From NCBI GenBank assembly GCA_021464415.1, contig CM038469.1, forward strand, positions 25,909,736-25,973,735: 64,000 nucleotides of DNA, given 5' to 3'. Position 1 is the stretch's first letter. Every line of letters starts with the position of its first letter. Origin of the DNA: Lonicera japonica (lineage: Eukaryota; Streptophyta; Magnoliopsida; Dipsacales; Caprifoliaceae). The translations under genes and the position numbers were made by a program. Below, one piece after another: positions 27,518 to 63,083 of the stretch. The notes beneath the pieces were generated by a model, which saw nothing but the letters and a program-made list of their open reading frames with translations, ran no database searches and was not told the origin of the DNA.

Positions 27518-29560
27518 GACACGTGATTTATATCTCAATTTTTACACTACCTTTGGAGATGCTCTAAGATCTAAAATTAAAAGTAGTTTTTGCTGGTGAC
27601 ATAAATAATGTATTAAAAAATTTTCGATATTAAAAATAAGTATTTTTAACCATAAATTATTTTGAGTTTAGTTCTACAAATTGAGTATAAAAATCAAGAT
27701 CGAGAAGCAAAACTGAAATCTTGAATTACAAAAACTATATACCTATTTTTAACCTTTCTTTACTATCATTTTGTTTGTTATTGAACCTCAAATAACATCC
27801 TTGCTGTTGGAATATATTAGTTTTCCTTTCCTTATTATGTTTCCTTACTTGAGTAGTAGAGGGTTAATTAGTTTCCTTTTTTCTGTTTCATTCAAACCCT
27901 ATATAAAGGGTTCTCTGTATTAAGTTTATAATCTAATTCAATATAATATATTCTCTCAATTCTTTCTCTCTAGAATATTTGATATGATATTAGAGGAGTT
28001 ATTCGATTTTCTCATCTAAAGTTTTTGGGTTCCCCCATTTCCGGCGCGCGGCCTTTTGCCGCCTGCCAGGTCAAAGAGTTTCTTTTACATCTCCTTTTGG
28101 TTTAACATATGAGTTTCTTTCTTTTTACGTTAGCTTTCAGCTTTTATCGAACTTAAGATGTCAAATTGATTTTGGTTTAACACCTCCTTCAATTTGAGGG
28201 GGAGTATTGGAAATCATTGTTATGGTTCATCTAGTTCATCCCACAATTATACCATTGTTAGGATCAAATCGACTTCACCGTTCGAAGAACCGTTCAAAGA
28301 AACGGCCGTCGCGGGTTCACCGTTTAAAAAAATGGTTGCGGGTTCACCGTTCAAAGAAATGGTAGTTGCGGGTTCACCGTTCAAAGTTTTTGGTTTCGTG
28401 TTTTAGTCCAGAAAGTTTCAAAAGGTTTATGTTAGGGTTCCCAGAAGTTTCGGTGTTTTTCAATTTGACCCCATAAAGTTTCTGGTTTTGCGTTTTGGTC
28501 TAGAAGTTTCAAAAGGTTTATGTTATTTGCAGTTTAGCCCAAAAGTTTCTATTTGGTCCCAAAACTTCCGATTTTTTACATATTGGTCCTACACCTTTGA
28601 GAAAGTTCGTGGTTAGTCTCGTTGCATATCATCATGGGTGATGCAAGTGAATCACATGTCCAAAAGGTTGAGATATCTATTTAAAGTCAGAAGGAGGTTC
28701 TTTTGGAGGTACCAAACTCAATGGCAGAAAAGCATTTTATGACTCGCTAAGAAGGTTGAGCATGTTCGATATCCATGCATCAACTTGAGGGGGAGTGTTG
28801 GAATATATTAGTTTTCCTTATTGTATTAGTTTCCTTTCCTTATTATATTTCCTTACTTGAGTAGGAGAGGGTTAATTAGTTTCCTTTTTGTGTTTCATCC
28901 AAACCCTATATAAAGGGTTCATTGTATTAAGTTTATAATCTAATTCAATATAATATATTCTCTCAATTCCCTCTCTCTAGAATATTTGACATTTGGATGT
29001 TCATACAAATTAACCAAACTGAGTTTTTTTATCCCTCGCATTAATTTTTAGAAAAAACATATCAAATTGCACAGGCTACTCCTTGTTCGTTAGAATTAAC
29101 ATTATAAATGTATTGTGTTACGTCTTCAATATTAAAAAAAAATGAATAGATTTGGTTAGTTAGAAAGTGTAGAAGTTATTAATTTTGTTTTACTGCTTTA
29201 TTTTGATTAGGGAGTTAAATCCATGATTTTAAATGTAAAGAACACATATTATCACTACTTGACCAAATACTATTTAATGTATTTACTATATTTTAGAAAT
29301 TCATATATTATATAATAAATTACTAAATATTATATTATATAAGCATCGTGTGCCAACGATTTTAGTATAACTTAAGCAACATGTCTCCAACCCAACAACC
29401 CGAGGAATTCCATAGATAAGAATCCTATATCTTGAATCTTTTTCATATATGCTAAAATGTCATATAATATTTATTAGTGGTACACATATGATAAACGCAT
29501 AATATTATTGATTCTTATACTTTTTTATAGAGTGTTTTAATGCATTTGTTATGTAACTTT
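27518..29560 (+). repeat. Decayed copy of the peptide-locus duplication, split by a TRIM
   Basis: Before the TRIM, TTTGTTTGTTATTGAACCTC with its neighbours resembles 53155-53195. After it, GATTTTAAATGTAAAGAACAC and CTTGACCAAATAC (29210-29270) match 61235-61280, and ACGATTTTAGTATAAC followed by TTAGTGGTACACATATGAT (29355-29490) matches 61735-61830. So this is a further, heavily decayed direct copy of the locus arm. No peptide exon is left; a decayed gypsy element follows it. Confidence 0.5.
27805..28991 (+). mobile_element. Small LTR element (TRIM-like, copia-type ends)
   Basis: Two direct repeats beginning TGTTGGAATATATTAG (27805-27984, about 180 bp; 28796-28991, about 196 bp) enclose roughly 810 bp without a coding region. 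The left repeat is followed by TGATATTAGAGG, a variant of the tRNA-Met primer site TGGTATCAGAGC, and the right one is preceded by a polypurine tract TTGAGGGGGAG. The repeats hold a TATA-like CTATATAAAGGG. The interior repeats TTCACCGTTCAAAG several times. The flanking bases do not give a clear target-site duplication. Confidence 0.78.
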
Positions 29561-36445: not shown

Positions 36446-36744
36446 ATTATTTAATATTATTCAAGTCGATTGACTTTATTAATTTAATACTTTTATATTA
36501 AAAAATAATTCTTTTTATTAAATGTCTAATTTTAATTGATAAAAAATAAGATTGTATTATTATTATAATTTGTTGGATTTAACTTCTAATTTGTTAAAAA
36601 CGGATATAAATTATGATTTGATGTGTATAATGAATGTTTTGATCTTATATGCACGTTTGGCTGTGAAAGAAATAATATTTAGAATTTATAAATTAATTGG
36701 ATTTAATTAAATATTAAAAACATGATATTAAATATATGACTCAC

Positions 36745-36823
36745 CTCTTCCATAAATGAATCCAACTGAAAGTAAGATAATGATAAAAACAATAAGACTA
36801 ATTTTACTCTTGTTAAATTTCCT
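36745..36823 (-). pseudogene. Signal-peptide exon of the candidate peptide gene, start codon lost
   Basis: On the minus strand the exon reads KFNKSKISLIVFIIILLSVG and then FIYGR before the donor GTGAGT. The codon at the start position is AGG instead of ATG. The hydrophobic core is intact and in frame, unlike the copy at 34767-34817, but like that copy it ends GGAAGAG|GTGAGT rather than TCAG|GTACATG. No second exon was found to its left. It belongs to the left arm of the inverted duplication. Confidence 0.6.
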
Positions 36824-38179
36824 CTTTGCAAATTAAGCACACAGCCCTCAATGTGCTCTTATATAAAAAAATTTTGTTCATGCTTTTATATTTGTTTTTT
36901 GGTTATAACCATCGAGGCACTAACTTCTTATCTCGCTTTCTCTTTGCTTTTCCATCATTGGGTGTCAAGGTACTAATTATTATTACAAGGAAAATGTCAT
37001 GAACCATTCAGATAAATATTTATATATATTTTAATCTAGAAGTGGTATATGATGCTAGAAAAATAAATAGTTAAGTATTGAGAAACACGAAAGAAAAATT
37101 GTACTAGCACAATTTCTTAAAGTGAAATTGGTTGTTGTATTCGAATTGTAAATCTTCGTGAGCAAATACTTCCTAGGTTTCAATGACTTAAGGTTCTACC
37201 AACAACTATAAGAACCCTATTGAACTTTCAATTGTACTCCAAAGATACAGAAAGAATAGGGGAAAAAAAAGAAGGGGATAAAATAATAGCTTTAATTTCT
37301 TTTTCTTTTTTGTGTATTTTATTTGGTTGAAAATAACTTTGCATATACTTGAAACAACGACCTCCCAAGCCAAATTCCAAACTTTCCGGTTGAGCTACCC
37401 ATCCCAAACTAATTTTTTCATTCAAAAACACTATTAACTAAGCATACGAACCCATTAGTATCCTTCTTTTGCAAACTGCCTGGTTTTAAGAGATAAGTTC
37501 TTCTTATGAATTTGTATCAAAGCATCCGGCATTATATTGTGTATGGGATTAGACATAGTGTGATTGAACTACAGCTCGGGTGTGGAGCAGATTGCCGAGG
37601 TATGTGATTGGATTTGTGAGACCAAGTTATGACTCCGAAGATCCAACATGGAAAAGGTGACCTACAAGTTACATTAAAATGACTTGATATTTATAATGCC
37701 AAGCCACCAAATGCAGGTAGTCTGGTAAATAAGTGAATGCGCCATAGTAGAAAGGGTTACCACCGGGCCAATGCTAGTGGAGTGGGCTGCCATAGAGTGG
37801 GCTGTCATGGACAACGACAATAATATTTTGATACATATGTTCATTTTCGCCCATGAAATTTTGTAAAGATGATCTCTCATTATAAAAATAATATCTACCA
37901 AGTTTCATAAAAAAAAATCATCCGTTAAATTCTCTAACTAAACCCCAATAAAAGAAATTGGAGCGAAGAAATAATAAAGAAAAGCCAAATCCGAATATGT
38001 GAAGATAGTATTTAGTTTATTGTACCTTAGCTTTGGTGCGTGTGATATGTTTACCACTAATAAATTGTATATAATAATTTAAAATGAAAGAACATAGGTT
38101 ATTGGATACCTAGGGAAGACCTCGGCTATTAAAATTGGTGGCACACCCGATCTGTGTGTGACATGATCAATACTTACCC

Positions 38180-38465
38180 TCTATTTGATAATAACATGAA
38201 AAATAATAGAAAAATAATTGATTTGTGTGAGAAGCTGCAAAATAAGTTAAGGTATATAGTGAGATACTCTCTATCTCATGTTCATTTTTATGAGTATATG
38301 TCATCTATCATTCTTTATTTTATGTTCTTTCCCACCCCAAAGAAAAATTCTCAATAGAAAAACTCAAAAAGTAAGTGTTAATATCGCCTCACCTCATTTT
38401 TCAACTTTTCACACAAATCGGTTATTTTTCCTACGATTTTTCATGTTGTTATTAAACAGAGTCAT
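38180..38465. mobile_element. MITE inside locus copy 2
   Basis: Inverted-repeat arms of about 100 bp: CTATTTGATAATAACATG, AATTGATTTGTGTGAGAAGC and AAAATAAG on the left pair with the complementary segments at 38390-38455. The same MITE is seen at 61390-61705 in copy 3, and its right half at 12680-12790 in copy 1, so it was present before the duplications. Confidence 0.6.
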
Positions 38466-38630
38466 AATAAAGGATAATGACATTATCAATCCACATAATT
38501 ACTCGAGCACTCCAAAATCATTTTAAGTGATACTTTATAGGATCTTTTAGGACACTTTTTATACATTGGAGACACTTTTTGAAGTGTTAAAATACTCTCA
38601 TAGATTGCAACTATCAACCGTGATGGGGTT

Positions 38631-39459
38631 AAATATTAATTTTACCATTAGCCTACAAAGGTAATTCAACATTTTTTACCTTCGGTAAAATTCCATTTTT
38701 ACCCTCGGTAAAATCTCATTTTTACCCTCCACTAAAATCCCACTCAACTCCACTCAAATTCCACTCACCTCCATTAACTTCCACTCAAATTCCACTTACA
38801 TCCACTCACCTTTGTAAAATTACCTTTTTACCCCTCATCTTCATCAAATTTACTTTTTTACCATTCTAGATTTTACCTATAAATACTTCTCTTCATTCAT
38901 TCATTCATTCATCCAAGATCATCTTTCTACAATCTAAACACACCAAAAACACACAATTCTTCTTATCTAAGATTCATCCATCTCATCAAAGAGATATAAA
39001 GCCATTGGTAATATAAATACAAGCCAATTCGAGAAGAAATAGAAGAGTCATATACTCTCTATTTTCATACCCCAAAAAATAGAAGGGTCTTATACTCTCT
39101 ATTTTCATACTCCAAAAAATACCAACAACCTTTATACACTATCTCTCCTACACAGTTTATTATTTATTCTGTTGAAATATTTGTAATCCTAATTCTATAC
39201 TTATAAATAGAATTAAGGAAATTATGGAGAGAGAGAAGTTGGTAGCTTGTATTATCTTCCAAATTGATCGCCTTTGAGCTAATACAAAGCAAGCACACAC
39301 AAAAGGAGGACGTACCACTGGAATAGCATAAGCGTTACCGGGGGAACCTACCTTAAAAAAAAGTCATGTGTTCATCATTGCGCCGCATTTATTTTTTTTA
39401 TTCACCGATATTCACTTATTGATTGGTTAATTATCTATCTCTAGATTTTGACGCCATCA
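38631..39459 (+). repeat. 5' LTR of the non-autonomous gypsy element
   Basis: 829 bp. TATA box TATAAATA at 38878-38885 followed by CATTCATTCATTC, as in the Tat-element LTRs. It lacks their GTGAACAGT array. Confidence 0.9.
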
Positions 39460-39480
39460 GTTGGCGCCGTCTGTGGGAAC
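39460..39480 (+). other. Primer-binding site of the non-autonomous gypsy element
   Basis: GTTGGCGCCGTCTGTGGGAA follows the 5' LTR directly, identical in its core to the site of the element at 17734-27512. Confidence 0.75.
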
Positions 39481-39554
39481 GACAAGCTCTCTAAAGCTCT
39501 CGTTCTTTAGAAATTACAAGTGAATTTTCGGTGAAAAGTTTGAAATCCCGCGGG

Positions 39555-39960
39555 TATACGTAGCTCAATATTCTCGGGGGCATAACTTTGTGCTCAGAAC
39601 TCCAAATCATGCGATTCTGGAGTCCATTTTGAAGAACATTTCAAGAGCTACAATTTTTCAGTTCAAGCCATTTTCAAATTCGGCCATCTCGGGGTTCCAA
39701 ATTTCGATACAAACTTTCTGGAACGAAATTCGTGGGCCTATGGTGACTCAATATTATCAGGCGCGTAACTTTGTGCTCAAAACTCCAAATCATGCGATTC
39801 TGGAGTCCATTTTGGAAACAATTTCAAGATCTACAACTTTCCAGTTTAATCCTTTTTCAAATTTGGCCATCTCGGGGTCCAAAATGGGGATACAAAGTTG
39901 CTACTACAAAAAATGCAAAAATCCGGCAAGCCTACACTTGCTCAATATTTACGAGCGCAT
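39555..39960 (+). repeat. Tandem leader repeat, unit about 180 bp
   Basis: Two clear units and a degenerate third: each has CTCAATATT, the CGTAACTTTGTGCTC motif, CCAAATCATGCGATTCTGG and GGCCATCTCGGGG. The first starts about 39555 and the second about 39740. It lies in the untranslated leader of the non-autonomous element. Confidence 0.75.
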
Positions 39961-40510
39961 AATCATTCAAAATTTCAGTTACCCAAGGGGATAAAACCCA
40001 AAAGAAGAGTTAAGTTATTTTTTAGTAACTCATATATGATTTTTCTCTTTATTTTAATATATCTAAAGTTGTATCATTTTTTTTACGATCAATAATCTTT
40101 ATTGTAAGAAAAATTGATGAGCTTCCAAAAAATTACAATTGAATGTAATTTTCATCAAGTTCGTCCAACAAACCACAAGAAAGAAATTAAAGAAATTTTC
40201 AGCGGATATCAAACTTGCACAAAGCTAAATGCGATTTTGAAATCCGTCAGACAACCGCTGGACCACCCCAGCCCAAAGAGATCTCGCTGAAAATTGGCCG
40301 ACAACAAATGCAGGCCTCAAAAAAAATAGAATAAGAAGAAAGAAAGAAAGAAATTTGAGAATTTGATGACAGTTGAAAAATGCCCGAATATAATCAAACT
40401 ATTTATGACCAAGAGTATAGCGAGCTTTACATATTAATGTTCCAAGCTCTACGACTTGCATCCAATGTCTAACGAGTTCTACACATTGATGTTTCGAGCT
40501 CAACGACTAG

Positions 40511-42089
40511 TGTTGACCTTGAAGGTCTTAATCTTATTTTGATAATAACAATAAATTAATCATGTATAATTTAACATGTTCTTGATATAAGATTATAGAT
40601 TTCTTATTTGAAAAATCAAGAATAGCATGATTGCTCAAATGAAGTTTGACAAGGATCATTCAATCAATATCCGATCAAGTCAACGAAGCATTCGACTAAA
40701 ACCGATCTACCTGAATTCAGATCATTCTTCTACAAGCGTTGGACAAGACAAGAAGATCAATCTCATCACCCACAAGCTAGCAATGCAAATCCATGAAGCA
40801 CAAAGATCAAGAATCATATGCAAAAGTTTCAAGGGAAAAGCTTCAAGTGAAGAATCAATTTGAAGAAACAAATCGAAGCATTCAAAGACTCATCTATTCG
40901 GTAATTGAGTGTTTGCTTAGGATTAATGTAAAGTTTCTTAATTAATTAATTATATAGCTCAAACATACTCTTACATCTTTTAAAGATTGATTCAAACTAG
41001 CTTGAAATTGAATTTATTTGAAAAACATCATTTTACAAAAACCGAGTTTCAAAATAAATTCATATTAATTTTAAATGATCATATTTTAAGCTATAATAAA
41101 AATGGGTATCTTAGAAAAATATATTTGAGGTTCAAAAATAATTAGAATTTTATTTGGAACTAAATTATTAAATTGGAAAAATATTTTTATTTTTCGTTTA
41201 AAATTCGCTTAATTTTTGCCCAGTTTTGATCTAACGGTAAAATGGAGGCCTTCCCGAACTCCGATCATTTTGAAAGTTTTGCAGTAGTTAGACAACATCT
41301 CCTGTCAATTTGTACTAAAATTTGAGCATGATCCAACGGTCAAATTGGGAGAAATTAACAAAACAATTTTGAATTGTTTTGTCAAAACTATCTGTTGGAA
41401 AGTTTGAAAATGTATACCTTGGAGCCAAAACCTCTCTTAATCATCCCCAATGGCCATATGATTTTGTAAGCTATAAATATGATGTCTTAGACATGTTTTA
41501 ATACACTTGAATCATTCTACAAACTTATTTTACATATATACAAAGTTATTCAAGTATTCAATTCATTTTATTGATCATATTCTTCATTTTTGAGCTATAT
41601 ATTTTGATCAATTTTGATATCTCTAGTGTGAGCTTCAAATTGTATTCTTTACACACTTGAGAGAGTTATTGTAAATTGGTGTGAATCACCAAACAATTTT
41701 GAATTCAATTGTGAGAGGTAAATCTCATAGGAAAAACAAGAAGGTAAATTCTTGTTTAGAAATTGTGAAAGGTAAATTTCACAAAGTTAGCAAGAGGGTA
41801 TCTTGTGAGAGTATTGTAGTGTTTCAATACTTGTAAGAGTGTGTGAGAAGAATACACTTGTAGAGGTTTGATCTTCACCCAGAAGGAGATCGGTTATAGT
41901 GAAAATTCTCGGAGAACTAACCGAGCGCGGAGTAGGGGGAACAAGCCGAACCGTGTGGACAAAAAATCATTTTTTGTTCTTGATTGCCTGATAAATATAG
42001 ACATCAAATATTTTTAAATCATTTTTAAAAATACGATTAAGTTTTAAAAACCCTATTCACCCCCCCTCTAGGGTATTTTCCGACCTACA
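40511..42089 (+). repeat. 5' LTR of the young copia element
   Basis: 1579 bp, TGTTGACC...CCTACA, followed by ATTGGTATCAGAGG, the usual tRNA-Met primer site of copia elements. A TATA-like GCTATAAATATG lies near 41470. Confidence 0.92.
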
Positions 42090-42090
42090 A

Positions 42091-42104
42091 TTGGTATCAG
42101 AGGT
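42091..42104 (+). other. Primer-binding site of the young copia element
   Basis: TTGGTATCAGAGGT directly after the LTR, the usual initiator tRNA-Met complement, with GG where GC is more common. Confidence 0.8.
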
Positions 42105-42145
42105 TGTACTCTTGTTTTGATTTAACAATCTTTGAGTTTACGATC

Positions 42146-43900
42146 ATGTCTATTTATCGAGGAACCGGAATTAACGAAGGTTCTTCCACCACTAGACCAC
42201 CTCTATTTGATGGCAAAAATTATAGTTATTGGAAAAGTCGTATGTGTACTTTCCTTCAAGCTAGTGATTTTGAACAATGGAGAGTTATACTTGAAGGATC
42301 CCATGAAATTACCAAAATAGATGATAGTGGAAAAATTGTTCCTAAGAAAATGTCCGAGTATGATGAAAATGATATTAAGAAAATTCAATATAATGCTAAA
42401 GCCTTAAATGCTTTAAATTGTGCATTAAGCATGGACGAATATAACAAAATTTCTAGTTGTAAAACGGCCAAAGAAATTTGGGATAAACTTGAGGTTAGCT
42501 ACGAAGGAACCACTCAAGTTAAAGACGATAACATAAATATGCTTGTTCATGATTATGAATTATTTAAAATGGAGCCTAATGAATCTCTTGCTTCCATGTA
42601 TAGTAGATTTTCTATTATTACTAATGATTTGGATCTTCTTGGAAAAGTTTATTCTAATGAAGATAAGATAAGAAAAATTCTTAGGATTCTTCCAAAGAAG
42701 TGGCGTCCAAAAGTGACGGCGATTCAAGAAGCAAAGAATCTCAAAACACTCAGCATGGACGAGCTCTTGGGTTCACTTAAAACCCATGAGAAGGAATTGG
42801 CGAGAGAAGAAGAAAGTGACTCAAAAGCCAAAAGGTCACTAGCTCTCAAAGCAACTCAACTAGATGATGATGAGGTATTGATGATAGAAGATGAAGATAT
42901 GGCTCTTCTTTCTAGAAAATTCATAAAATCTCTAGCCAAGAAGAAGAAATTTCAAGGAAAAGGAAACAACTTTGATCCTTCATCAAGGAGAAACAACGAT
43001 CGATCTATTCAACCAAGAGTTGAAAATGAAGAAGAAAAGAAGTGTTTCCATTGCCATGAACCAGGGCATTTCAAAACAAATTGCCCGGTTAGAAGAAAGG
43101 AAAGAAGAGACAAAAGAGACAAAGCCTTCAAGCAAGTACGACACGCCCTCAAAGGTACTTAGAGTGATTCCGAAGAAGGTGAATCCAATACCGATTCTAG
43201 CGACGAGGAAACGGCAAATCTTTGCCTTATGGCAAGAGACGATGAGGTACACTCTTCTTATGACTCATCTAGTGATGATAATGCATCTATTAATAATGAT
43301 ATACATGATGAGAATGACTATGAATAATTATATGATATGTTTGATGAATTGCATAAAAAGTTTAAAAAATTATCTAAAATGTATGCTAGCCTCAAAAAGG
43401 AAAATTTGATTATTTCTAGCAAGTGTGAAAATTTTGAGAAAGAAAATGTATTTTTGAAAAATGAAAACAAAACGTTGAAGAAAGGAAAAGAAAAAGAAAC
43501 TCCAAACACACTTGTATTAGAGAATATCAAATTGAAAGATCAAGTGGATGATCTAACTAATAGTCTAGCCAAGTTCACCAAAGGAAAAGATAACTTGGAT
43601 AAATTATTAGGAATGCAAAGGTGTGTTTTCGACAAAGCCGGTTTGGGCTATAACCAAATTGACAACCAAAAGGATTACAAAAACCTTTTTAAAACATACA
43701 CACCTCATGATCCCACTCATGTTTGCTCATATTGTGGTAGAAATACTCATTATGTGGACCATTGTTTTTATCGAAATGAAAGTTTTCCTAAAAGGAAGCT
43801 TGCTTGGATTTCTAAAGGAACCATTATGTACACTAACCCCAAAGGACCCAACTTATTTTGGGTACCAAAAGAAAAGTTGCTTAAGATTTTGGTATAGATC
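42146..43900 (+). pseudogene. Gag and gag-pol linker of the young copia element
   Basis: From the ATG at 42146 (MSIYRGTGINEGSSTTRPP) the frame gives the copia gag pattern: FDGKNYSYWKSRMCTFLQA, WDKLEVSYEGT, LVHDYELFKMEPNES, FSIITNDLDLLGK and a zinc knuckle CFHCHEPGHFKTNCP (43050-43094). A TAG at 43160-43162 replaces a Trp codon, and a TAA near 43325 follows. The same frame then continues with a long coiled coil (ELHKKFKKLSKMYASLKKEN onwards) and a second knuckle-like CSYCGRNTHYVDHC. It would form the particle; the stops mean only the first part could be made. Confidence 0.88.
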
Positions 43901-43908
43901 TGCATGAG

Positions 43909-44455
43909 AGCAAAAGCTAGCAAAATAAAATGGTTATTGGATAGTTGATGCTCGAAACACATGACGAAAAAACAAATAAAATTGAGTCTCACTCCTAAAC
44001 AAGGAAGCAACGTCACATTTGGAGATAACGCCAAAGGTAAAATTATTGGTATAGGTAAAGTTTATAAGAAATGTTCTTATATTGATAATATTCTACTAGT
44101 TGATAGTTTAAAACATAATTTGCATAGTATTATTCAATTGTGTGATAAAGGTTATGAAATTATTTTTAAATCTGAATGTTGCATTGTTAAAAATAATAGT
44201 GATAATTATATCTTGTTTGTTGCTTATAGATCTAATAACGTATATACTCTTGAACTTGATGATTTGTCTCAACAAGATGTTAAATGTTTATCCGTATTGA
44301 ATGATGTTTCTTGGTTATGGTATAGAAGATTAAGTTATGCTAATATGGATTTAATTCACATGTTATCTAAAAATGAATTAGTTAAATGATTGCCAAAAAC
44401 TTAATTTGTTAAAAATAAAATTTGTGATGCTTGTCAACTTGGTAAACAAACATAA
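43909..44455 (+). pseudogene. Protease and GAG-pre-integrase remnant of the young copia element
   Basis: The protease start reads WLLDS-stop-CSKHMT, where the family has DSGCSKHMT, so the residue after the catalytic Asp-Ser is a TGA. It continues with TFGDNAKGKIIGIGKV and LLVDSLKHNL. The GAG-pre-integrase part reads WLWYRRLSYANMDLI; the first zinc-binding His of WHRRLGHA is Tyr and the second (GHA) is also changed to Tyr. CDACQLGKQT closes it at about 44455. The integrase core that should follow is missing; the LOB cassette starts within about 70 bp. Confidence 0.85.
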
Positions 44456-44521
44456 GTCTTCATTTTGCATGTTATTATAAACTAACAATAATTTTGCAGT
44501 CTAAAAATTATTATTTATCAT

Positions 44522-45292
44522 TCAAAGAAAAGAAGGGAACAGAATCTGAAGATCATCAGCATCAAAATTCAAAACACCATCGAGACTAGAAGAAGAATAA
44601 TCAACAAAATTATGCTCCATACCTAATAGAGCTGTCCAATCAGGACTCATTGGCTCGGCAACCTCCGCAATAGTACCACTTTGAGAAAATTGTGATGAAT
44701 GGCCTTCCAAAGCAGCTTGGTAATCTAACATAGTCGGATATGCCGGCAAACCCACATTAGTTAGAAAAGCACTATAGTCTAAAATATTTCCGGTAGTCGG
44801 AAGAATTTCAGGTGCAACATTTTCTGCTAACGATAGGAGCCCTGTAGAACTTATAGGATGAGCAAAAGAAAAGCTTTGGTTAGCGCTAGAAGACTCTCTT
44901 AATCGAGCCTCTAATGTTGTCACTCGTGACTGCAAAGCCTCTAACGCTGTCACCCGTGATTGTAACTCTTGTACCTTTTGTTCAAGAGAAACAATGAGTG
45001 CAATACAGCCTTTACTAGGATTCTCGACTCTCGCCTTAGCTTCAAAAAAAAATGAATAGAGAGTCTCAAGATATTGATGTTGAGGAATTTCTTTTAAAAT
45101 ATTTGCAACACTATTTACCCCAAAAACGGTGAAGATTGTACGATAATCTTGACGACTAATCACATCCATAAAAATTTGTGCATATTCACACCATGGCTGA
45201 CATTTCTTGCGTTTATAAGTGCAAGCAGCACAAGATGAACCGGTACAACGGAAGGTATTCGGCATACTTTTGATTTGCTTTCCCTTACTCAT
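44522..45292 (-). CDS. LOB-domain (LBD/AS2-like) transcription-factor-like ORF inside the copia element
   Basis: An intact 256-codon frame begins MSKGKQIKSMPNTF. Cys21-x2-Cys24-x6-Cys31-x3-Cys35 is the LOB zinc motif. Residues about 50-100 form the GAS-type block (IFTVFGVNSVANIL, EAKARVENPSKGC), and residues about 101-132 form a heptad coil in which LQSRVTALEA is duplicated as LQSRVTTLEA. The C-terminal part ends with SPDWTALLG and VLNFDADDLQILFPSFL, acidic and hydrophobic like an activation domain. LOB proteins bind DNA and regulate plant development. It is antisense to gag, takes the place of integrase-RT-RNase H, and shares about 300 bp of upstream sequence with the gypsy-borne copy at 19302. 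It may be a captured host gene or an element accessory gene. Whether it is expressed is unknown. Confidence 0.85.
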   Translation of the reverse strand: MSKGKQIKSMPNTFRCTGSSCAACTYKRKKCQPWCEYAQIFMDVISRQDYRTIFTVFGVNSVANILKEIPQHQYLETLYSFFFEAKARVENPSKGCIALIVSLEQKVQELQSRVTALEALQSRVTTLEARLRESSSANQSFSFAHPISSTGLLSLAENVAPEILPTTGNILDYSAFLTNVGLPAYPTMLDYQAALEGHSSQFSQSGTIAEVAEPMSPDWTALLGMEHNFVDYSSSSLDGVLNFDADDLQILFPSFL

Positions 45293-45612
45293 GGGTACCT
45301 CCTATAAAAGTTATAAGAAGAAAATGGATCTCGAGGAAGACAACAAGAAAGAGGGGACAAGAGGCATCTAGCAATTAAAAGAATCCCGAAAACGAAAAGC
45401 TGTCATCCTAAAAGGTCAAAAATACAGCGCCCCCCGCGTGCATCTAGAGTCCACCGCCCTAGCATGGTCTAGATCCCTCTTTGATGTTGACATAGGGGGA
45501 GAAAATGTGCGTAATGTTGATTCTGCGGTAAAAGGTAAGATTTTTTTTGCTGCAGTAAGATTTTTTTTTTTTCCTGCTGTAGTAAGATTTTTTATACCGA
45601 CTTTAAATATTG
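45293..45612 (-). promoter_or_regulatory. Upstream region of the copia-borne LOB ORF
   Basis: Reading leftwards from about 45612 there is a TATA-like GGTATAAAAAATC (45585-45600), then ACTACAGCAGG and poly-A tracts, then a GC-rich CGCGGGGGGCGC (45427-45440) and the start codon at 45292. The whole stretch matches 19008-19301 of the gypsy element. It also holds CATAGGGGGAGAAAATGTG (45491-45510, plus strand), which recurs at 45819-45838 in the copia 3' region. Confidence 0.55.
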
Positions 45613-46103
45613 TGGTAAGACTTTTAAATGCTTTATGTCTTTAATATTCATACTTGTTTTATTTTGCATGTTATATTTCGTGTTTTGACGTTTTATTGAG
45701 CCACTAAAAAAAACAAAAATGGCAAAAGATGGAGAGGCATTCACACCTTGGCCTCATAGATGAAGCACTCTTGGAGTTACCATTTTCTCTCCGTGGCCTT
45801 GATCCCTTTTTGATGTTGCCATAGGGGGAGAAAATGTGTGTTGGTGACAATTAATGTTGGTAAGACCATTAATTGTTTTATGTCTTTAATATTGACAATT
45901 GTTTTCTTTTGAAAACCTTATTTGAGATCAAAATTCTTTTATTAATTTTTAAAACTATCTCAAATATTTGTAATGCTTTTAATAATCTTTTATTTTATCT
46001 ATGCATAAATTGAGGGGGAGCATATTTCAATTATTCATATGCTATTTCTGCTTGTTATTGAAAACACACATTAATTTATTGTCATCATCAAAAAAGGGGA
46101 GAT
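45613..46103 (+). other. 3' untranslated region of the young copia element
   Basis: It contains TTTTTGATGTTGCCATAGG followed by GGGAGAAAATGTG (45809-45838), TTGAGGGGGAGCAT (46011-46024) and the polypurine tract AAAAAAGGGGAGAT. These are the usual closing motifs of SIRE/Maximus-like copia elements; the lineage assignment is inferred from them. Confidence 0.55.
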
Positions 46104-47682
46104 TGTTGACCTTGAAGGTCTTAATCTTATTTTGATAATAACAATAAATTAATCATGTATAATTTAACATGTTCTTGATATAAGATTATATATTTCTTAT
46201 TTGAAACATCAAGAATAGCATGATTGCTCAAAGGAAGTTTGACGAGGATCATTCAATCAATATCCGATCAAGTCAACGAAGCATTCGACTAAAACCGATC
46301 TACCCGAATTCAGATCATTCTTCTACAAGCGTTGGACAAGACAAGAAGATCAATCTCATCACCCACAAGCTAGCAATGCAAATCCATGAAGCACAAAGAT
46401 CAAGAATCATATGCAAAAGTTTCAAGGGAAAAGCTTCAAGTGAAGAATCAATTTGAAGAAACAAATCGAAGCATTCGAAGACTCATCTATTCGGTAATTG
46501 AGTGTTTTCTTAGGATTAATGTAAAGTTTCTTAATTAATTAATTATATAGCTCAAACATACTCTTACATCTTTTAAAGATTGATTCAAACTAGCTTGAAA
46601 TTGAATTTATTTGAAAAACATCATTTTACAAAAACCGAGTTTCAAAATAAATTCATATTAATTTTAAATGATCATATTTTAAGCTACAATAAAAATGGGT
46701 ATCTTAGAAACATATATTTGAGGTTCAAAAATAATTAGAATTTTATTTGGAACTAAATTATTAAATTGGAAAAATATTTTTATTTTTCGTTTAAAATTCG
46801 CTTAATTTTTGCCCAGTTTTGATCTAACGGTAAAATGGAGGCCTTCCCGAACTCCGATCATTTTGAAATTTTTGCAGTAGTTAGACAACATCTCCTGTCA
46901 ATTTGTACTAAAATTTGAGCATGATCCAACGGTCAAATTGGGAGAAATTAACAAAACAATTTTGAATTGTTTTGTCAAAACTAGCTGTTGGAAAGTTTGA
47001 AAATGTATACCTTGGAGCCAAAACCTCTCTTAATCATCCCCAATGGCCATATGATTTTGTAAGCTATAAATATGATGTCTTAGACATGTTTTAATACACT
47101 TGAATCATTCTACAAACTTATTTTACATATATACAAAGTTATTCAAGTATTCAATTCATTTTATTGATCATATTCTTCATTTTTGAGTTATATATTTTGA
47201 TCAATTTTGATATCTCTAGTGTGAGCTTCAAATTGTATTCTTTACACACTTGAGAGAGTTATTGTAAATTGGTGTGAATCACCAAACAATTTTGAATTCA
47301 ATTGTGAGAGGTAAATCTCATAGGAAAAACAAGAAGGTAAATTCTTGTTTAGAAATTGTGAAAGGTAAATTTCACAAGGTTAGCAAGAGGGTATCTTGTG
47401 AGAGTATTGTAGTGTTTCAATACTTGTAAGAGTGTGTGAGAAGAATACACTTGTAGAGGTTTGATCTTCACCCGGAAGGAGATCGGTTATAGTGAAAATT
47501 CTCGGAGAACTAACCGAGCGCGGAGTAGGGGGAACAAGCCGAACCGTGTGGACAAAAAATCATTTTTTGTTCTTGATTGCCTGATAAATATAGACATCAA
47601 ATATTTTTAAATCATTTTTAAAAATACGATTAAGTTTTAAAAACCCTATTCACCCCCCCTCTAGGGTATTTTCCGACCTACA
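46104..47682 (+). repeat. Second full LTR of the young copia element
   Basis: Same length as the first and nearly identical. It is preceded by the polypurine tract AAAAAAGGGGAGAT (46090-46103), as a 3' LTR should be, but it is followed by primer site and gag start instead of target DNA. Confidence 0.92.
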
Positions 47683-48154
47683 ATTGGTATCAGAGGTTGT
47701 ACTCTTGTTTTGATTTAACAATCTTTGAGTTTACGATCATGTCTATTTATCGATGAACCGGAATTAACGAAGGTTCTTCCACCACTAGACCACCTCTATT
47801 TGATGGCAAAAATTATAGTTATTGGAAAAGTGTGTGAGAAGAATACACTTGTAGAGGTTTGATCTTCACCCGGAAGGAGATCAGTTATAGTGGAAATTCT
47901 CGGGGAACTAACCGAGCGCGGAGTAGGGGGAACAAGCCGAACCGTGTGGACAAAAAATCTTCGACTTCGATCGGTTCAATCTTTCTATCTCTTGCTATAT
48001 TATATTGTTCTATTTATTCATTGTGTTTGGAATTAACTTTGTTCTTGATTGCCTGATAAATATAGACATCAAATATTTTTAAATCATTTTTAAAAATACG
48101 ATTAAGTTTTAAAAACCCTATTCACCCCCCCTCTAGGGTATTTTCCGACCTACA
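47683..48154 (+). repeat. Extra leader/gag start and partial third LTR
   Basis: 47683-47830 repeats the primer site and first gag codons of 42090-42237, then joins at 47831 to the last part of an LTR, ending CCTACA at 48154 beside the target duplication ACTAG. The partial LTR contains about 90 bp near 47960-48040 that both full LTRs lack, so it came from a different sub-lineage of the family. Confidence 0.85.
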
Positions 48155-48159
48155 ACTAG

Positions 48160-48450
48160 CATCCGAGATCTAGCATCATTGGACTACGACTCGAGATCAA
48201 CGTCTAGCCAGCCTTACACAATGATGTTCTGAAGCTCTAAAAGCTCTACACATTGATGTTTTGAGCTCAACGACTAGCATCCGAGATCTAACGTCCTTGA
48301 ACTAAGACTCGAGATCAACGTCTAACCAGCATTACACAATGATGTTCTGAAACTCTAAGACTAATGATCAAAGTCTAGCTAGCTTCACACATTAATGTTC
48401 TAAACTCCACAAACTTATGGTCAAGGGTTAACAAAGTCCTACACATCGAT
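48160..48450 (+). repeat. Tandem repeat of the non-autonomous element, unit about 125 bp
   Basis: Units contain CATCCGAGATCTA, CGAGATCAACGTCTA, ACACAATGATGTTCTGA and ACATTGATGTTTTGAGCTC. The first unit begins before the copia insertion (40440-40510) and continues after it, which shows that the copia element landed inside this array. Confidence 0.7.
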
Positions 48451-48698
48451 TACTCGAGCTCTCTCCATGATTATCTTTCTCGACAAGTGCCCTCTCTTAC
48501 GCTTCAGCTTCGAAAAAGATTTCTAATAAAGACAAAAGACCTAATACAGGCATTGAATTGTCGACCTTGTTCGCCTATGAAGGATTCGGGCCTAAGACAT
48601 CATGAACATCAGAGCTCAGAGCTACTACTAACTCCCGGATTGAAGGATATCCTCACCAATCAGCTCATCCAAGCTAAATGATAAGGATAGGGGGCAAT

Positions 48699-49520
48699 TG
48701 ATGGGGTTAAATATTAATTTTACCATTGGCCTACAAAGGTAATTCAACATTTTTTACCTTCGGTAAAATTCCATTTTTACCCTCGGTAAAATCTCATTTT
48801 TACCCTCCACTAAAATCCCACTCAACTCCACTCAAATTCCACTCACCTCCATTAACTTCTACTCAAATTCCACTCACCTCCATTAACTTCCACTCAAATT
48901 CCACTTACATCCACTCACCTTTGTAAAATTACCTTTTTACCCCTCATCTTCATCAAATTTACTTTTTTACCATTCTAGATTTTACCTATAAATACTTCTC
49001 TTCATTCATTCATCCAAGATCATCTTTCTACAATCTAAACACACCAAAAACACACAATTCTTCTTATCTAAGATTCATCCATCTCATCAAAGAGATACAA
49101 AGCCATCGGTAATATAAATACAAGCCAATTCGAGAAGAAATAGAAGAGTCATATACTCTCTATTTTCATACTCCAAAAAATACCAACAACCTTTATACAC
49201 TATCTCTCCTACACAGTTTATTATTTATTCTGTTGAAATATTTGTAATCCTAATTCTATACTTATAAATAGAATTAAGGAAATTATAGAGAGAGAGAAGT
49301 TGGTAACTTGTATTATGTTCCAAATTGATCGCCTTTGAGCTAATACAAAGCAAGCACACACAAAAGGAGGACGTACCACTGGAATAGCATAAGCGCTACC
49401 GGGGGAACCTACCTTAAAAAAAAGTCATGTGTTCATCATTGCGCCACATTTATTTTTTTTATTCACCGATATTCACTTATTGATTGGTTAATTATCTATC
49501 TCTAGATTTTGACACCATCA
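48699..49520 (+). repeat. 3' LTR of the non-autonomous gypsy element
   Basis: 822 bp, nearly identical to 38631-39459. It is preceded by the polypurine tract at 48683-48698. Confidence 0.9.
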
Positions 49521-54710: not shown

Positions 54711-55186
54711 TGTTGGAATTAAATCACTTAAGTCATCATGTCAAATCATCAAGAACTAAATTAAAACAATGATTAAACCGCGTACCTGGATCCATGACAA
54801 ACAAATGCGGAATACGAGGATCGATCACAATAACAGCACGGATCGAGCGGGTACGTGGTCTTCCTCAACCAAATCGCCTTAGTGTCTTGATGGGAATTTT
54901 GGTTCTCTTCTAGATGGGGAGAAGGGAGCCGTAATTTGATTTGGTGTATTGGGGACCATAACCCTAATATCAACTTTATATACAAACTAGTTGGAGTTCC
55001 CATTAAACCCTAATAAGCTCATATGAGGTATCTACACATTTGACCCACATTAATTTTAGTAGTCTATGGGCTTCACTAAAAATTAATTAGACCACTAAAA
55101 AATTAGCCCATTAATTAAATAGCAAATATAATTGAAATATTATAATATGTTGCCCACATAAATTAGAAAATATAAATTTTCTAACA
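54711..55186 (-). repeat. 3' LTR of the old copia element
   Basis: 476 bp; on the minus strand TGTTAGAAAATT...CAACA. Nearly identical to 60370-60845. Confidence 0.92.
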
Positions 55187-56042
55187 ATCTCCCACTTGGG
55201 CTACATATTAATCCTGAAACAATTATATCACAGAATTCTTTAAGCGCGGATCCATATGCTATTTATCCTTAGACTTCTCCTTAAACAATCTGGTCTATCT
55301 CATGTACGAGTAATGGAATTACCGCAGCTTTTATCACAGTAAGGTAGTGACTAAACCACGATTATCACCATACTAATACACTTAATAACATAGATCAAAT
55401 GTGGATGAGTAGCATGAAAATTACATGCAATGTGATCTTAGACATGCCTATTTCCAACTGGCCCAACTTTAATGAGATCAACATTAACCGTCCAAACTTT
55501 ATGTTAAACCACAATGGAAGGAAATAAAACAAATATTCAGAGTTAAGACGAAAATAAACCATCTTCTTTATTCTGCAGAAAATTTGCGTCTAAATAAAAG
55601 AGCATCCAGAATACAAACTCCCACTAAACCAGCACTTTATTAGATAACACAAAACCCAAATGAGCAATATACTCATGAAATACCTTATGTGTTAAGCCTT
55701 TAGTGAACGGATTCATAATCATGGAGTTTGTACTTATATGCTCTATAGACACGATAACTCTGAACTTCTTTTTTTTTCAACAACAAAAAAAAACTTAATA
55801 TCTATGTGCTTTAGATTTTCAAAAAATTTCTGTTGTTGTCGAATATAGCAAAATTAATTATTGTCACAAAATATCTTTAATGATCTTTCGACACTATCTA
55901 CAATTCACAGCCTAGTGACAAAATTGTGCAGCTATATCCCATCCAAAAATCGAAATCAGAACACCATATGATCTCCAACTGATCTGATTTTCGATACGTA
56001 AGTATATAATCCTTTTGTTCTCTTTAACTAGCGTATAACCCT

Positions 56043-56449
56043 TTAATTGGCTGCTTTCCGAAGATATATCATAGGGTTACTTAAATATCTATCAAATATT
56101 TTTACTATGAACGCTAAACCCAAATGCCTACATACTTTATGATACATCAGATTCCTTATAACTGATGCATAAGGAATCTTTTGCATCTCTTTCTTTTCAA
56201 CAATTTTTTGGGCACTTGTTGTGACATAAATTGTCTCCTTTAACATGAGAGTATTCCTGAATGACAATCTTTCATGCCAAATCTGGTAAGAATTTTTTCG
56301 ATATATCTCTTTCGTAAAAACCCTAAGTATAAATAATGATGATAATGTATTATATTCCTATACAAAGATATATCAACAACATAATAATAATCCACAGATA
56401 ATGTTACTCCCACTGAACTTATGATATAATAATCATCAACCGAAGACAA
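56043..56449 (-). pseudogene. Reverse-transcriptase C-terminal fragments of the old copia element
   Basis: GFLRKRYIEKILTRFGMKDC (56449 frame) and KEMQKIPYASVIRNLMYHKV followed by LGLAFIVKIFDRYLSNP (56267 frame) are the end of copia RT, where the family has L.Q..YI..VL.RF.M and IPYASAVGSLMYA...SRY..NP. The two overlap in different frames, so a frameshift separates them. RNase H should lie between 56040 and 55190 but is not clearly readable. Confidence 0.85.
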
Positions 56450-56669
56450 AACCTTACGAGAATAAATTCTTAATTGTAATGAAATATAAATGACAAAATT
56501 CTTAAGGCTATGAAGATTTCTTTAATTTAACGATTCTTGAGATTGATTTTTAGTTGCTATTATAGAAATTTTTATATGCCTTGATTGCTTAAGTCAAACA
56601 ATATTGAAACTCTGATGAATAATTTCTTGTCAATGTCAGAACTTCATAATTGAAGATATCAATTCATTT

Positions 56670-56867
56670 TCAATCAATGTTTCTAACTTTATTTCTCCTT
56701 TCAAACTCAATAATCTCAAAAAATTTGGCATTTTCCGTCTTAATAAAGGATTTATTCAAGGGATCATAAAATTTATAATCTCTCGATCTTTCAGTGTATC
56801 TAACAAAGTAGCAGCTTATTATTTGAGTCCAATTTCTTTTCTTAATGGCCTTACCACAGCTGGACAA
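56670..56867 (-). pseudogene. Integrase C-terminal fragment of the old copia element
   Basis: CYFVRYTERSRDYKFYDPLN and then IKTENAKFFEIIEFE match the copia integrase tail (usually GYSERSRGYRFYDP...ETGNARFFED). Upstream integrase core sequence to about 58000 is too decayed to delimit. Confidence 0.8.
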
Positions 56868-56999
56868 CCTATTTTAGCAACTGCTTTGAATAACACTGCT
56901 TAAAAAATATGCTGCTGTCTTAAGTGTTTCTTCCTAGAGTCATCATGGTAGAGAAGAATGATTAATCACGCTCCTTACCATATCCTTAAGCTTCTACTT

Positions 57000-58700
57000 T
57001 ATGTCTTAGCAACACTGTCCATACTTGGTTTGCCTAGCATGGTGTACTGTGAGACGATTCTGCATTTCTCTAAGAATTTCACAAAGGTCCAGAACATTGT
57101 TTACCTTATCCGTTATATCTACTGTAATATTTAACACCACAATCAGATTTCACGGCCTCAGCTTTCTTGCCTAGTTGATTTTCAACTCCAACTATGAAAG
57201 TCATAACAACGTTTAAGGATTGTAACTTCTCATTAATTGAATATAGGTACCCTTAATAATTGTCATGAACATAATAAAATACTGTTAACCATTCCAGAAG
57301 GCCGTATAGAACAGTTCACAGATATCGTCATGAATTAGTTCTAAGACAATTAAATTCCTTATGGCACCTAGTTTCCTTATGTTTGTCCATTCCCCCTTTA
57401 CACATTAAATACAGATTTTAAAATCTGTTAAATCAAGGGATTTTAAGAATTCCACAAGTCTCTTAATTCTCTATTTAGAGATTTATCCCAAATGCTTGTG
57501 CCATAACATAGAAGAATTCTTATCAGTTAATTTATGCTTTGTATCACATGAATCAATTTACAAGGTCTCATTATATGAGGTGGTTGTATCCGTATATAGG
57601 TTATCAATTAAAGAAATAGTAGCAAAATATTTGAATTTTGAAAAAGACTTAATTTTATTATTTTCAAATGAACAATAATAACCGTATTTGTCCAAATAAA
57701 AAAAATTATGTCTAAATGACAATACCATATAAGTCTCTCCCAAATTTAAAAGTAATTAGTCTTTAATGATAACTTAAAATTCCTTAGAACCTCAACTGTA
57801 ACTGTTTTGCCACTGCCCTGATAGATGAATATTTCAACATTAATTGGCTTTTGGCTCCACATATAACCTCTAAACACACTTAGGTGAGTAGTGTTACCAA
57901 AATCTACTCACAAAGTAATCACATGTACATAAGTTAAACTAACCACCGAACAAACCATAATGAGAAGTATATCCTACTTTACACGCCAAATGACGTATTT
58001 GAAACATTACTACGTCTATCCTTCTTGCAAAATTAATTGACAAATTCTTTATCATGTTTCTTTTGCAATTACTAAAGTGTTGTTCTAACTGCAGCTTCTT
58101 AATTTTTATCCTTTATCCTTTCCTTTAGAGGTGTTTGCTAGATGAGTAACCACTGTATTTTATCGCTAAATCTTTTATTCTTCTTGCACACTGTAAAATA
58201 TGAGCTCATTAAGAGATCATTAATTTATCCTTATGAGTATTGTAACTCATTATAAACTAACTGTATTGTGCGGGAAGAGAAATAAAGAACTTGATACACG
58301 AGCAAGTCATTAGACAGCCCTAACTTTAGTGCATTTAGTTTGAAAGCGATATCAGACATTTTCATAATGTACTTCCCTTATGTTCCTTTTCCTTATACCT
58401 TATTGAAACAAGACTAATCAAAAGGTTACTTGTTTCAGCCTTTTTTTTTATTTTGGCAAAAATATTTCTATATTTTCTTTAAGGAACTAAGTAGCATTTT
58501 TCTCATAAAGCCCCAAAAATTCTTGGAATAGAAGCGTTTTATTTCCAATTCTTAAAATTTGTGCCGTTAAGCACCGATACCGAATTTATGTTGGCAGATA
58601 TATAAAGCATAACTTAAAATTGAATAGAGAACAAATTATAAAAATTACAAACTTACAATTAATATAAATGTCATAATATATTAACAAACAATAAATATGA
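57000..58700 (-). other. Decayed interior of the old copia element
   Basis: By position this should hold gag, protease and integrase core. Frames are broken too often for a confident motif call. Confidence 0.4.
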
Positions 58701-58739
58701 ATGACACAATTATCCAAATTATCAATAGTGGTCCCCATC

Positions 58740-59520
58740 ACAAGATACCTAGCACAACTTTGATATTTAGTCTTTGGACAGAAACATCAACTTGTAATTG
58801 GTCATCTCAACGCAGTAATCAAATATAAATAACAAATCCTGTCAAATAATAAGACTTCCTTTGGGCCGACGTATTATTCACATGGAAAACTTGATTGTCA
58901 TATTATATTTATTACCACAGGTGTATGTATTATTCGGCCAAACAATAACCTTCCTTTGGGCCGATTATTATTCGCATAAATAACAAATACACACATCTTA
59001 ATATTCCAAAACAAACAAATTTACTTGATAGAGGTTACTTTGGTAACTTATCGTTTCAATTCATCTATTTCAAAATATCAGACAATTTGTGCTTCGCATC
59101 CTTATAATCTAAAAAAAATAGATTTTCTGTATTAATGAGATTTGCAAAGCATAAACCTTATCTTTCCCACATTAACGCGTACTGCAATTTTGGATTACTA
59201 GCAGTCTAGCGTTTTCGTGCCCAAATAAGACTGTAATAAGTACTCTCAATACAAGAATCAAATGTTGATAATAATTTCTGTCAAACAAAAAGCCTTTCTT
59301 TGGACTGACTTATTGCTCACATGAAAAACTTGAGAATTACCATACATTTATTCTCATGCGTGTGTTTATTATTCTGCCAAATAATAATCTTCCTTTGGGC
59401 TGATTATTAAATGCATGAATAATAATCACACAAATATCGAAAGAAAATAATGTCTATTATTTGGCCAAATAATAACTTTCCTTTAGGCCAATTATTATTT
59501 GCATAAATAATAAATATTAA
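58740..59520 (-). repeat. Leader repeats of the old copia element
   Basis: The motif CTTCCTTTGGGCCGATTATT and variants occurs five times (58853, 58951, 59293, 59389, 59477) with surrounding AAATAATAA and CACATGAAAAACTTG. The spacings 98, 342, 96 and 88 bp show a unit of about 440 bp duplicated in tandem, each with an internal pair. It lies between the primer site and gag. Confidence 0.7.
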
Positions 59521-60355
59521 TATCTAAATAGATAATAAGCTTAATCCATACCCTTAATCACAATAAATGTAAGAATAAATTCTTTAATCTTAATATATAT
59601 ATGGCACATAAATTAAAGCCGAATCCATAAATAAAAAATTATGCAGGAAGCTAGCAAACATTGGTAAACTTACACCAATATTAATACATATATATATATA
59701 TATATATATTAACCAAACATATATCTATATGTAAACCAACAGTAATATATATACAAAAACACATAACAACCATGTATATATATTATATAAATATGAAACC
59801 TACCTGTTCTTTAAATCTTTCGTCCTTTTATATATATATAAAATTACTTTAGTCAAATCAAACTCATAGATATATGAATAAACCTATATATATATATAAA
59901 GCCTTCATGTCCTTTGCGGCAACATCCCTTTTTTTTTTTTTTTTTTTTGAAACCAAAAAACCATACAACATCCACAGGACCATCAAATCGGATTAAAAGA
60001 TTTATGTATGCTCTGTCTTTAAACTGGATCCATATGTACATGTAGGGTCAAAAGGTTTTCATACATATATATGTTAAATAAAGAAACCTCACGGTCAAAT
60101 CGTAAAAAATAAGAAAAATGACTTTAGTTTAATTCTTATGCATAATTACATCCACTTATACATCATGGTCAAATCAATCGAGAGTTTCATCTATATGTAT
60201 AAAGGTCAAATCGCAACTACTATACTATTATCGTAACTTAGATCACTGCTACATGCAACTGAAGTTATATCCGTTTAATAGGTAGCCTTAATTGTATATA
60301 GCTGAACCCTTATAATAATAAATCTCACATAAATTTAATGATTTAACATGAAGTT

Positions 60356-60369
60356 GCTCTGATACCACT
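60356..60369 (-). other. Primer-binding site of the old copia element
   Basis: AGTGGTATCAGAGC on the minus strand directly follows the 5' LTR; this is the standard initiator tRNA-Met complement of copia elements. Confidence 0.85.
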
Positions 60370-60845
60370 TGTTGTAATTAAATCACTTAAGTCATCATGT
60401 CAAATCATCAAGAACTAAATTAAAACAATGATTAAACCGCGTACCTGGATCCATGACAAACAAATGCGGAATGCGAGAATCGATCACAATAACAGCACGG
60501 ATCGAGCGGGTACGTGGTCTTCCTCAACCAAATCGCCTTAGTGTCTTGATGGGAATTTTGGTTCTCTTCTAGATGGGGAGAAGGGAGCCGTAATTTGATT
60601 TGGTGTATTGGGGACCATAACCCTAATATCAACTTTATATACAAACTAATTAGAGTTCCCATTAAACCCTAATAAGCCCATATGAGGTATCTACACATTT
60701 GACCCACATTAATTTGAGTAGTTTATAGGCTTCACTAAAAATTAATTAGACCACGAAAAAATTAGCCCATTAATTAAATAGCAAATATAATTGAAATATT
60801 ATAATATGTTGCCCACATAAATTAGAAAATATAAATTTTCTAACA
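60370..60845 (-). repeat. 5' LTR of the old copia element
   Basis: 476 bp, differing from the left LTR at only a handful of positions by eye. It contains a TATA-like TTTGTATATAAAGTTG on the minus strand near 60645. Confidence 0.92.
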
Positions 60846-63044: not shown

Positions 63045-63083
63045 ATGAAAGGAAAAAGTTTTAAGAGCACAATATTTTACAAG

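Follow-up and report, generated by a model that had tools for sequence, protein, structure and literature searches.

The window, that is, the whole stretch of 64,000 nucleotides of Lonicera japonica (honeysuckle) analysed here (C7:25909736-25973735), contains two unrelated LTR retrotransposons, each carrying a gene for a LOB-domain protein. The first is a gag-only copia-type element at 40511-48154 (+), delimited by repeat comparison and sequence reading and bordered by the target-site duplication ACTAG (40506-40510 and 48155-48159). It forms a chain of LTR, internal region, LTR, partial internal region and partial LTR. LTR 1 (40511-42089, +) is followed by a tRNA-Met-type primer site, TGGTATCAGAG, at 42092; LTR 2 (46104-47682, +) is preceded directly by a purine tract (46090-46103), and a partial third LTR occupies 47822-48154 (+). 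The repeat 40511-42238/46104-47831 is 99.1% identical over 1728 bp and extends into the start of gag. The internal region (42090-46103) consists of gag, a pol remnant, the LOB cassette and the 3' end. Its gag frame (42146-43162, +; Pfam Retrotran_gag_2, E 7.5e-28) is shorter than the 583-aa frame found in 7 of 20 fetched relatives, and the pol remnant (43961-44471, +) matches beta-barrel and gag-pre-integrase domains at 43961-44389. No reverse transcriptase or RNase H was found among the scanned frames of this region. The whole copia element is nested in a second, Tat-type element without pol (38621-49520, +; LTRs 38621-39459 and 48699-49520), which corrects the earlier description of the site.

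The LOB cassette of the copia element (44510-45652, -) contains an intact LOB-domain frame of 256 aa at 44522-45292 (-; Pfam PF03195, E 1e-22). Upstream of it, 45293-45652 (-) includes a TATA-like TATAAAAAAT at 45587-45596 (-) and a CACGCG motif at 45435-45440 (-). A 15-bp direct repeat, ATTTTGCATGTTATA, read by eye at 44465-44479 and 45662-45676, brackets the cassette.

The second carrier, element A, is a Tat-type gypsy element at 17734-27512 (-), with LTRs 93% identical, the target duplication GGGCT (17729-17733 and 27513-27517) and a primer site, TGGCGCCG, at 26553 (-). Pfam domains define its pol at 20877-25148 (-): protease and reverse transcriptase at 23322-25148, RNase H at 21774-22607 and 22962-23285, and integrase at 20877-21758. 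The LOB cassette (18965-19967, +) lies antisense between integrase and the 3' LTR, and its gene is broken into a 137-aa LOB-domain frame (19329-19742, +; Pfam LOB, E 1.5e-24) and a C-terminal piece without a Pfam match (19703-19954, +), with a stop inside the span 19302-19742. Tail-to-tail with LOB lies a short poly(A)-binding-protein (PABP)-like fragment (19971-20069, -; E 0.0099 to 6r5k), for which the next four matches are likewise PABP (E 0.05-0.14). Elsewhere, the window holds a further LTR element (54711-60845, -), with a primer site at 60367 and LTR repeats that are 98% identical over 476 bp, and a dispersed repeat of about 2 kb at 12624-14590, 36741-38524 and 61330-63614, with 76-77% identity among the three places.

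The two cassettes are homologous at the DNA level over about 1.1 kb: 19018-19667 corresponds to 45566-44936, and 19821-19962 to 44670-44515. The shared stretch includes about 350 bp upstream of LOB with a conserved GTATAAAAAAT. Thus the original prediction, which described an intact 256-codon LOB frame, a broken homologue in a Ty3/gypsy element, antisense orientation of both to gag-pol and about 300 bp of common upstream sequence with a TATA-like site, was accurate for both window elements. Upstream sequences were aligned from both window loci, the seven fetched Tat copies and 12 of the 20 fetched gag-only copies (13 gag-only and 8 Tat rows in all); the blocks kept in both families include GTATAAAAAAT, a pyrimidine-rich leader and ATGCACGC. 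In Tat elements the first ATG belongs to a five-codon frame, with LOB itself beginning at a later one; most gag-only copies use the first ATG for LOB, and their LOB has nine more residues than that of Tat. Moreover, a stretch resembling the copia 3' end, GATGTTGCCATAGGGGGAGAA, lies inside the cassette of both elements, with 3 matches in the window and 0 expected. A Helitron, retrogene or MULE origin of the cassette was rejected, as neither poly(A) nor terminal inverted repeats were seen by eye at its ends.

The L. japonica assembly that was searched comprises 886,079,548 bases in 967 sequences. With the 256-aa protein as query, 148 of 2226 first-look candidates were scored and ranked by match, which gave at least 148 copies, the window copy included, of 86-100% identity over nearly the whole length. 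By hand count, 101 of these best 148 copies lack internal stops and 47 have them. Twenty gag-only loci of about 10 kb each were fetched from these matches. LOB lies antisense beside the pol remnant in all 20, and gag is whole or nearly so in most, being partial or missing in L009, L026 and L027. In the nine copies inspected, the frames longer than 150 aa belong to LOB or to an intact or fragmented gag; L028 has gag pieces only, and L020 has a second gag frame within a chained unit. The chained arrangement (LTR-internal-LTR-internal) thus occurs both at window 40511-48154 and in L020. Three of the 20 copies have a premature stop in the LOB frame and 17 do not; in L017 the frame extends beyond the compared stretch as an open frame of 262 without a stop. 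Eleven LTR pairs longer than 1 kb, a limit that left out two shorter repeats (L022, 93.3%; L026, 98.6%), are 97.25-100% identical, and a simple rule identified exact 5-bp duplications at 8 of the 11. Five copies with LTR pairs at least 99.69% identical (L018, L019, L020, L021 and L024) have a common finger change, QPWC to KPCC, which is absent from the other 16 rows.

A genome search with PF03195, in which 150 of 1605 candidates were scored, gave 24 host-like places at 110-148 bits and, after a gap, 126 places at 87.3 bits or less, which include gag-only copies; one of the latter, C2:62442782, matches profile positions 1-69 only and may be a host exon. Eight low-scoring places selected for open frames were fetched, and seven of them are Tat copies with LTR, cassette and adjoining region. 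These Tat copies were thus selected through their LOB match; in six of the seven, as in element A, LOB lies antisense between integrase and the 3' LTR, and L054 has part of this region followed by another LTR. No TRP28 domain (PF04195) was found by Pfam in the scanned LOB frames or in the 80-aa frame at 20758-21000.

A third kind of carrier, missed by the original prediction, is a short LTR element in which LOB, in sense orientation, is the only recognisable gene. The eighth fetched PF03195 place, L056, shares with L057 and L058 a common unit of about 1.5-1.7 kb, consisting of a sense LOB, a purine tract and an LTR-like end. L057 has an LTR-like repeat pair of 90.7% identity with a target duplication that is inexact by eye, and no LTR pair was found within the fetched stretch of L056, L058 or L060. 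When P0075, a 370-aa relative, served as the query, 443 matches were returned and 111 of the 2574 candidates were scored; dozens of rows have identical scores, and many have a 505-aa open frame. Among these, L059 is a complete LOB-only element of 3.07 kb with all the marks of an LTR retrotransposon: 297-bp LTRs 98.3% identical, the target duplication CTAAT, the primer site TGGTATCAGAG and a purine tract. When three LOB-strand frames of L059 were scanned by Pfam, LOB was recognised and two other long open frames gave no match. L061 has a primer site and a purine tract, and its LOB is part of a 505-aa open frame; the fetched stretch is cut at the LTRs. The two LOB-only subfamilies have a common LTR stretch of about 80 bp with 81-85% identity, and for this reason they are counted here as one kind. 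Because LOB is read in sense in these elements, antisense orientation, presented originally as a common feature, does not hold for all carriers.

Several LOB-only elements lie beside gene frames. For instance, an RNase III-like frame (L059:3-485, +; Pfam E 4.7e-15) stands beside the complete element, L056 adjoins an alpha/beta-hydrolase frame, and L058 adjoins a RING-finger frame, so that short LOB-only elements may favour genes. Additionally, a 30-bp minisatellite at window 28289-28385 resembles the left end of the L056 and L058 units.

A link between Tat and LOB-only elements comes from the PABP-like fragment. A 33-aa PABP-like stretch adjoins the Tat LOB stop and recurs next to the stop of LOB in L056-type units and, judged by eye, in L059; it has no match in the fetched gag-only loci. 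Tat copies and the L056-type unit share an identical 26-bp piece of it (L050, 27 bp; L054, 24 bp). This suggests that LOB and the PABP-like fragment seem to have moved together between Tat and LOB-only elements.

The upstream regions of all three kinds contain the motif CACGYG, found in 19 of 20 gag-only copies (within 360 nt), all seven Tat copies (420 nt) and all six LOB-only loci (800 nt). For comparison, the motif occurs in 8 of the 177 360-nt tiles of the window and, across the 20 loci, in 27 of 540 tiles, upstream ones included. L061 has CACGTG 16 times within the 800 nt, and L059 and L060 have eight CACGCG each; at L061:399-743 the CACGTG boxes form a tandem array in the leader. The CACGCG count was matched in 0-2 of 100 dinucleotide shuffles for a gag-only row, four Tat rows, L057, L059 and L060, and in 5, 7 and 52 of 100 for L056, L058 and L061, the array of the last being CACGTG. 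Because the motif was picked after inspection, and rows within one family are related and not independent, this enrichment is a lead only. GCGGCG, a known LOB binding site, is absent upstream in the counted gag-only, Tat and 370-type rows; L056 has one and L057 two.

The encoded proteins are recognisable members of the LOB family. Against a curated cut-off of 24.2 bits, PF03195 scores are 80.9 for the window copia copy, 86.8 for the window Tat copy, 69.6 for L059, 72.5 for L061 and 82.8 for L053. The C-x2-C-x6-C-x3-C finger is present in the printed copia, Tat and LOB-only rows with two exceptions: in L060 the last two cysteines are one residue closer together, and in P0005 from L. macranthoides the last cysteine is replaced by Y. 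Where most fetched host LBD genes have a DPVYGC-like stretch, most element copies read NPxxGC. In a structure model (mean pLDDT 47), a coiled coil in blocks 101-130 (pLDDT 77-91) is the sole confident part. Element LOBs are like plant LBD factors in their PF03195 match, zinc-finger spacing, coiled coil and a GAS-like block, and unlike them in forming a separate clade on a long branch and in having their frame inside LTR elements.

This separation is seen in both trees. The first contains 48 rows, including nine gag-only and eight Tat rows of this genome and 20 of the 24 host-like genes, which were fetched for it; in the second, of 53 rows, the host gene L047 was dropped (19 host rows) and six proteins were added. 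All retroelement LOBs stand opposite the host LBD genes on a 100/100 branch of about 1.6 changes per site, and they do not group tightly with any one host gene; such tight grouping was part of what the original prediction had named as the sign of a chance capture. A recent copy of a host LBD gene is thereby ruled out. The gag-only LOBs form a clade (100/100 in the 48-row tree, 97/92 in the 53-row tree), and Tat LOBs do not form a supported clade (53/6). The nearest host gene is L037 in the 53-row tree (98/97) and is not so resolved in the 48-row tree. With about 100 alignment columns, the order of capture is not rootable. The proposal of a mobile LOB cassette spread across unrelated families is well supported by its many copies, the same cassette and upstream region in copia and Tat elements, and this single clade separate from the host LBD genes. 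The alternative that had been set against it, a chance capture confined to two loci, is ruled out by copy number, as the genome search found far more than two loci.

Three protein searches, one of them limited to scoring the 7996 candidates with the most words in common, listed relatives from Lonicera macranthoides, the only exceptions being P0013 (ena) and P0074 (lgn). These two, of 1351 and 1650 nt, were rejected as expression evidence, being short contigs of unstated kind. A further LOB type of 275 aa, P0020, has 22 member sequences in L. macranthoides.

Selective constraint was estimated by the Nei-Gojobori method from nine gag-only rows and three Tat types of 3, 3 and 1 rows, at dS of 0.3-0.4. 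For the LOB domain, dN/dS between gag-only and the three Tat types is 0.23, 0.34 and 0.30; for the middle of the frame it is 0.72, 0.83 and 1.18, and for the C-end 0.91, 0.48 and 0.50. Codon bootstrap of four gag-only/Tat pairs gave 0.24-0.33 for the domain, with intervals inside 0.11-0.70 (all below 1), and 0.66-0.88 for the rest of the frame, with the intervals of all four pairs including 1. Domain values involving 370-type LOB-only elements are 0.28 against Tat and 0.40 against gag-only. In six copies with both genes intact, gag gives 0.247, the LOB domain 0.249 and the whole LOB 0.47. Within the gag-only family, where synonymous changes are few, pN/pS among 19 copies is 0.64 for the whole frame, 0.31 for the domain and 1.6 for the C-terminal part, the last reaching 1.9 among nine copies. 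A value close to neutral (0.72 on 3 pairs) was obtained for the 265-aa LOB-only subfamily, and intervals for L056 against gag-only or Tat copies reach 1 in three of four tested pairs (L014-L056, window-L056 and L049-L056, not L054-L056). All of these ratios come from copies chosen as LOB matches, often the best ones, which biases them toward intact conserved frames. Synonymous divergence in the same copies is lower for LOB than for gag (0.044 against 0.127), a gap that we cannot explain otherwise than by recombination or regional rates. Judged by these ratios, the DNA-binding domain of LOB shows the conservation expected under purifying selection, with much weaker constraint on the remaining parts of the frame. 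A ratio near 1 had been proposed as an argument against function: the domain lies well below 1 between families, and the middle and C-end lie near or above 1 in several comparisons. Constraint on the domain supports the earlier suggestion of an accessory gene of the elements. The companion suggestion, that the elements serve to place a transcription factor at new loci, is a conjecture on which these data weigh neither way.

On balance, we lean, with some reserve, towards the reading that the divergent LOB gene found in at least three kinds of LTR retrotransposon, its domain conserved as if by purifying selection, is likely the elements' own accessory regulator. The sequence facts are strong, and a regulatory role of LOB is what we infer from them as likely. 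The cassette would have passed between element families by template switching or insertion. The LOB protein would be made from the element gene and is predicted to bind element DNA in the nucleus through its C-x2-C-x6-C-x3-C finger; its acidic C-terminal motif LNFDADDLQIL may activate, and the upstream CACGYG motifs may be regulatory. The expected effect would be to raise transcription of the elements or lift their silencing, and the gag-only and LOB-only elements would be mobilised by a putative autonomous partner. A wider version is tentative and, in our judgement, not particularly likely: autonomous Tat, gag-only copia and LOB-only elements might be linked by one shared LOB factor that acts in trans, through the elements' CACGYG arrays, to activate them jointly or counter their silencing. 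If true, even an element whose sole gene is a transcription factor would prosper.

The constraint data bear most directly on the rival possibility that LOB was captured once and has been carried without benefit by recombination between elements, its frames being intact since the copies are young. The copies are indeed young, with LTR pairs up to 100% identical, middle and C-terminal dN/dS is near or above 1 in several comparisons, the 265-aa subfamily stands at 0.72, and plant LTR elements are known to capture host genes according to PMC7264820. However, the domain values of 0.23-0.34 between families at dS 0.3-0.4, with all four tested intervals below 1, and a domain as constrained as gag in six copies count against it, and retention of the same gene in at least three kinds of element already strains this account, which we regard as unlikely. 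That constraint falls on the amino acids of one domain also weakens the idea that the antisense transcript matters, not the protein, through dsRNA with genomic RNA or shielding of the genomic RNA. This idea would suit the antisense LOB of gag-only and Tat elements, and dsRNA roles have been proposed for such frames (PMC7264820), but LOB is sense in LOB-only elements, which leaves it little probability.

LOB proteins are developmental regulators, and element LOB might instead interfere with the host's own LBD proteins, in meristems or germline precursors for instance, thereby aiding transposition or transmission. The confident coiled coil (pLDDT 77-91) of the model would make dimerisation with host LBD proteins possible, yet the element LOBs are very divergent from them (branch of 1.6 changes per site), and we consider such interference highly improbable.

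The favoured reading, of an accessory regulator of the elements, has parallels among known systems. Tat/Retand elements have extra antisense ORFs, such as Grande gene23, RIRE2 and Retand ORF4, between pol and the 3' LTR; an own promoter was reported for gene23, and a nuclear or DNA-binding role was proposed for such frames (PMC7264820 and PMC11963269). Honeysuckle LOB likewise lies antisense between integrase/pol and the 3' LTR, but it encodes a LOB domain, not TRP28, and its carriers include copia-type elements as well as LOB-only elements, where it is read in sense. PMC7264820 states that, save for an SMC domain and TRP28, aORFs-3R have no described clear resemblance to other proteins. The main text of PMC11963269 treats antisense frames and TRP28, with LOB, LBD and DUF260 occurring 0 times. 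TR-GAG elements are non-autonomous and consist of gag between two LTRs, the rest of pol being absent (PMC9784723). Gag-only honeysuckle copies similarly have LTRs and gag as the only retroelement gene, with a persisting pol remnant, but add an antisense transcription-factor-like gene. HBZ, a bZIP protein of an animal retrovirus, is mentioned here with no homology to honeysuckle LOB claimed. PMC11963269 cites HBZ of HTLV-1, a nuclear retroviral protein, as an example beside antisense-encoded retroviral genes.

VANC of Arabidopsis VANDAL is a transposable element-encoded DNA-binding protein whose targets are fast-diverging noncoding tandem repeats (PMC10398659). By analogy, the honeysuckle CACGYG motifs, noncoding, upstream of LOB and arrayed in some families, are candidate targets. 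VANDALs, unlike the elements described here, are DNA transposons, and VANC is not known to be a LOB protein. LOB is best read as a shared accessory gene, probably a self-regulator resembling VANC anti-silencing proteins, and LOB elements would offer a retrotransposon parallel to transposon-encoded anti-silencing.

Among titles and abstract beginnings of open-licence literature, in which subscription papers are mostly missing, no report of LOB genes in retrotransposons was found; PMC12581244 treats LOB and retrotransposons apart. So far, few relatives have been recognised for the antisense extra genes of plant retrotransposons, and none of these genes has had its function tested (PMC7264820). 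Honeysuckle LOB combines a recognisable DNA-binding domain, measurable constraint and presence in unrelated families, and it is the only recognisable gene of a high-copy element. With such a recognisable, constrained and shared domain, whether these genes regulate the element becomes directly testable. Additionally, LOB matches from elements could inflate LBD gene counts in Lonicera, as 126 of the 150 scored PF03195 places belong to the low-scoring group.
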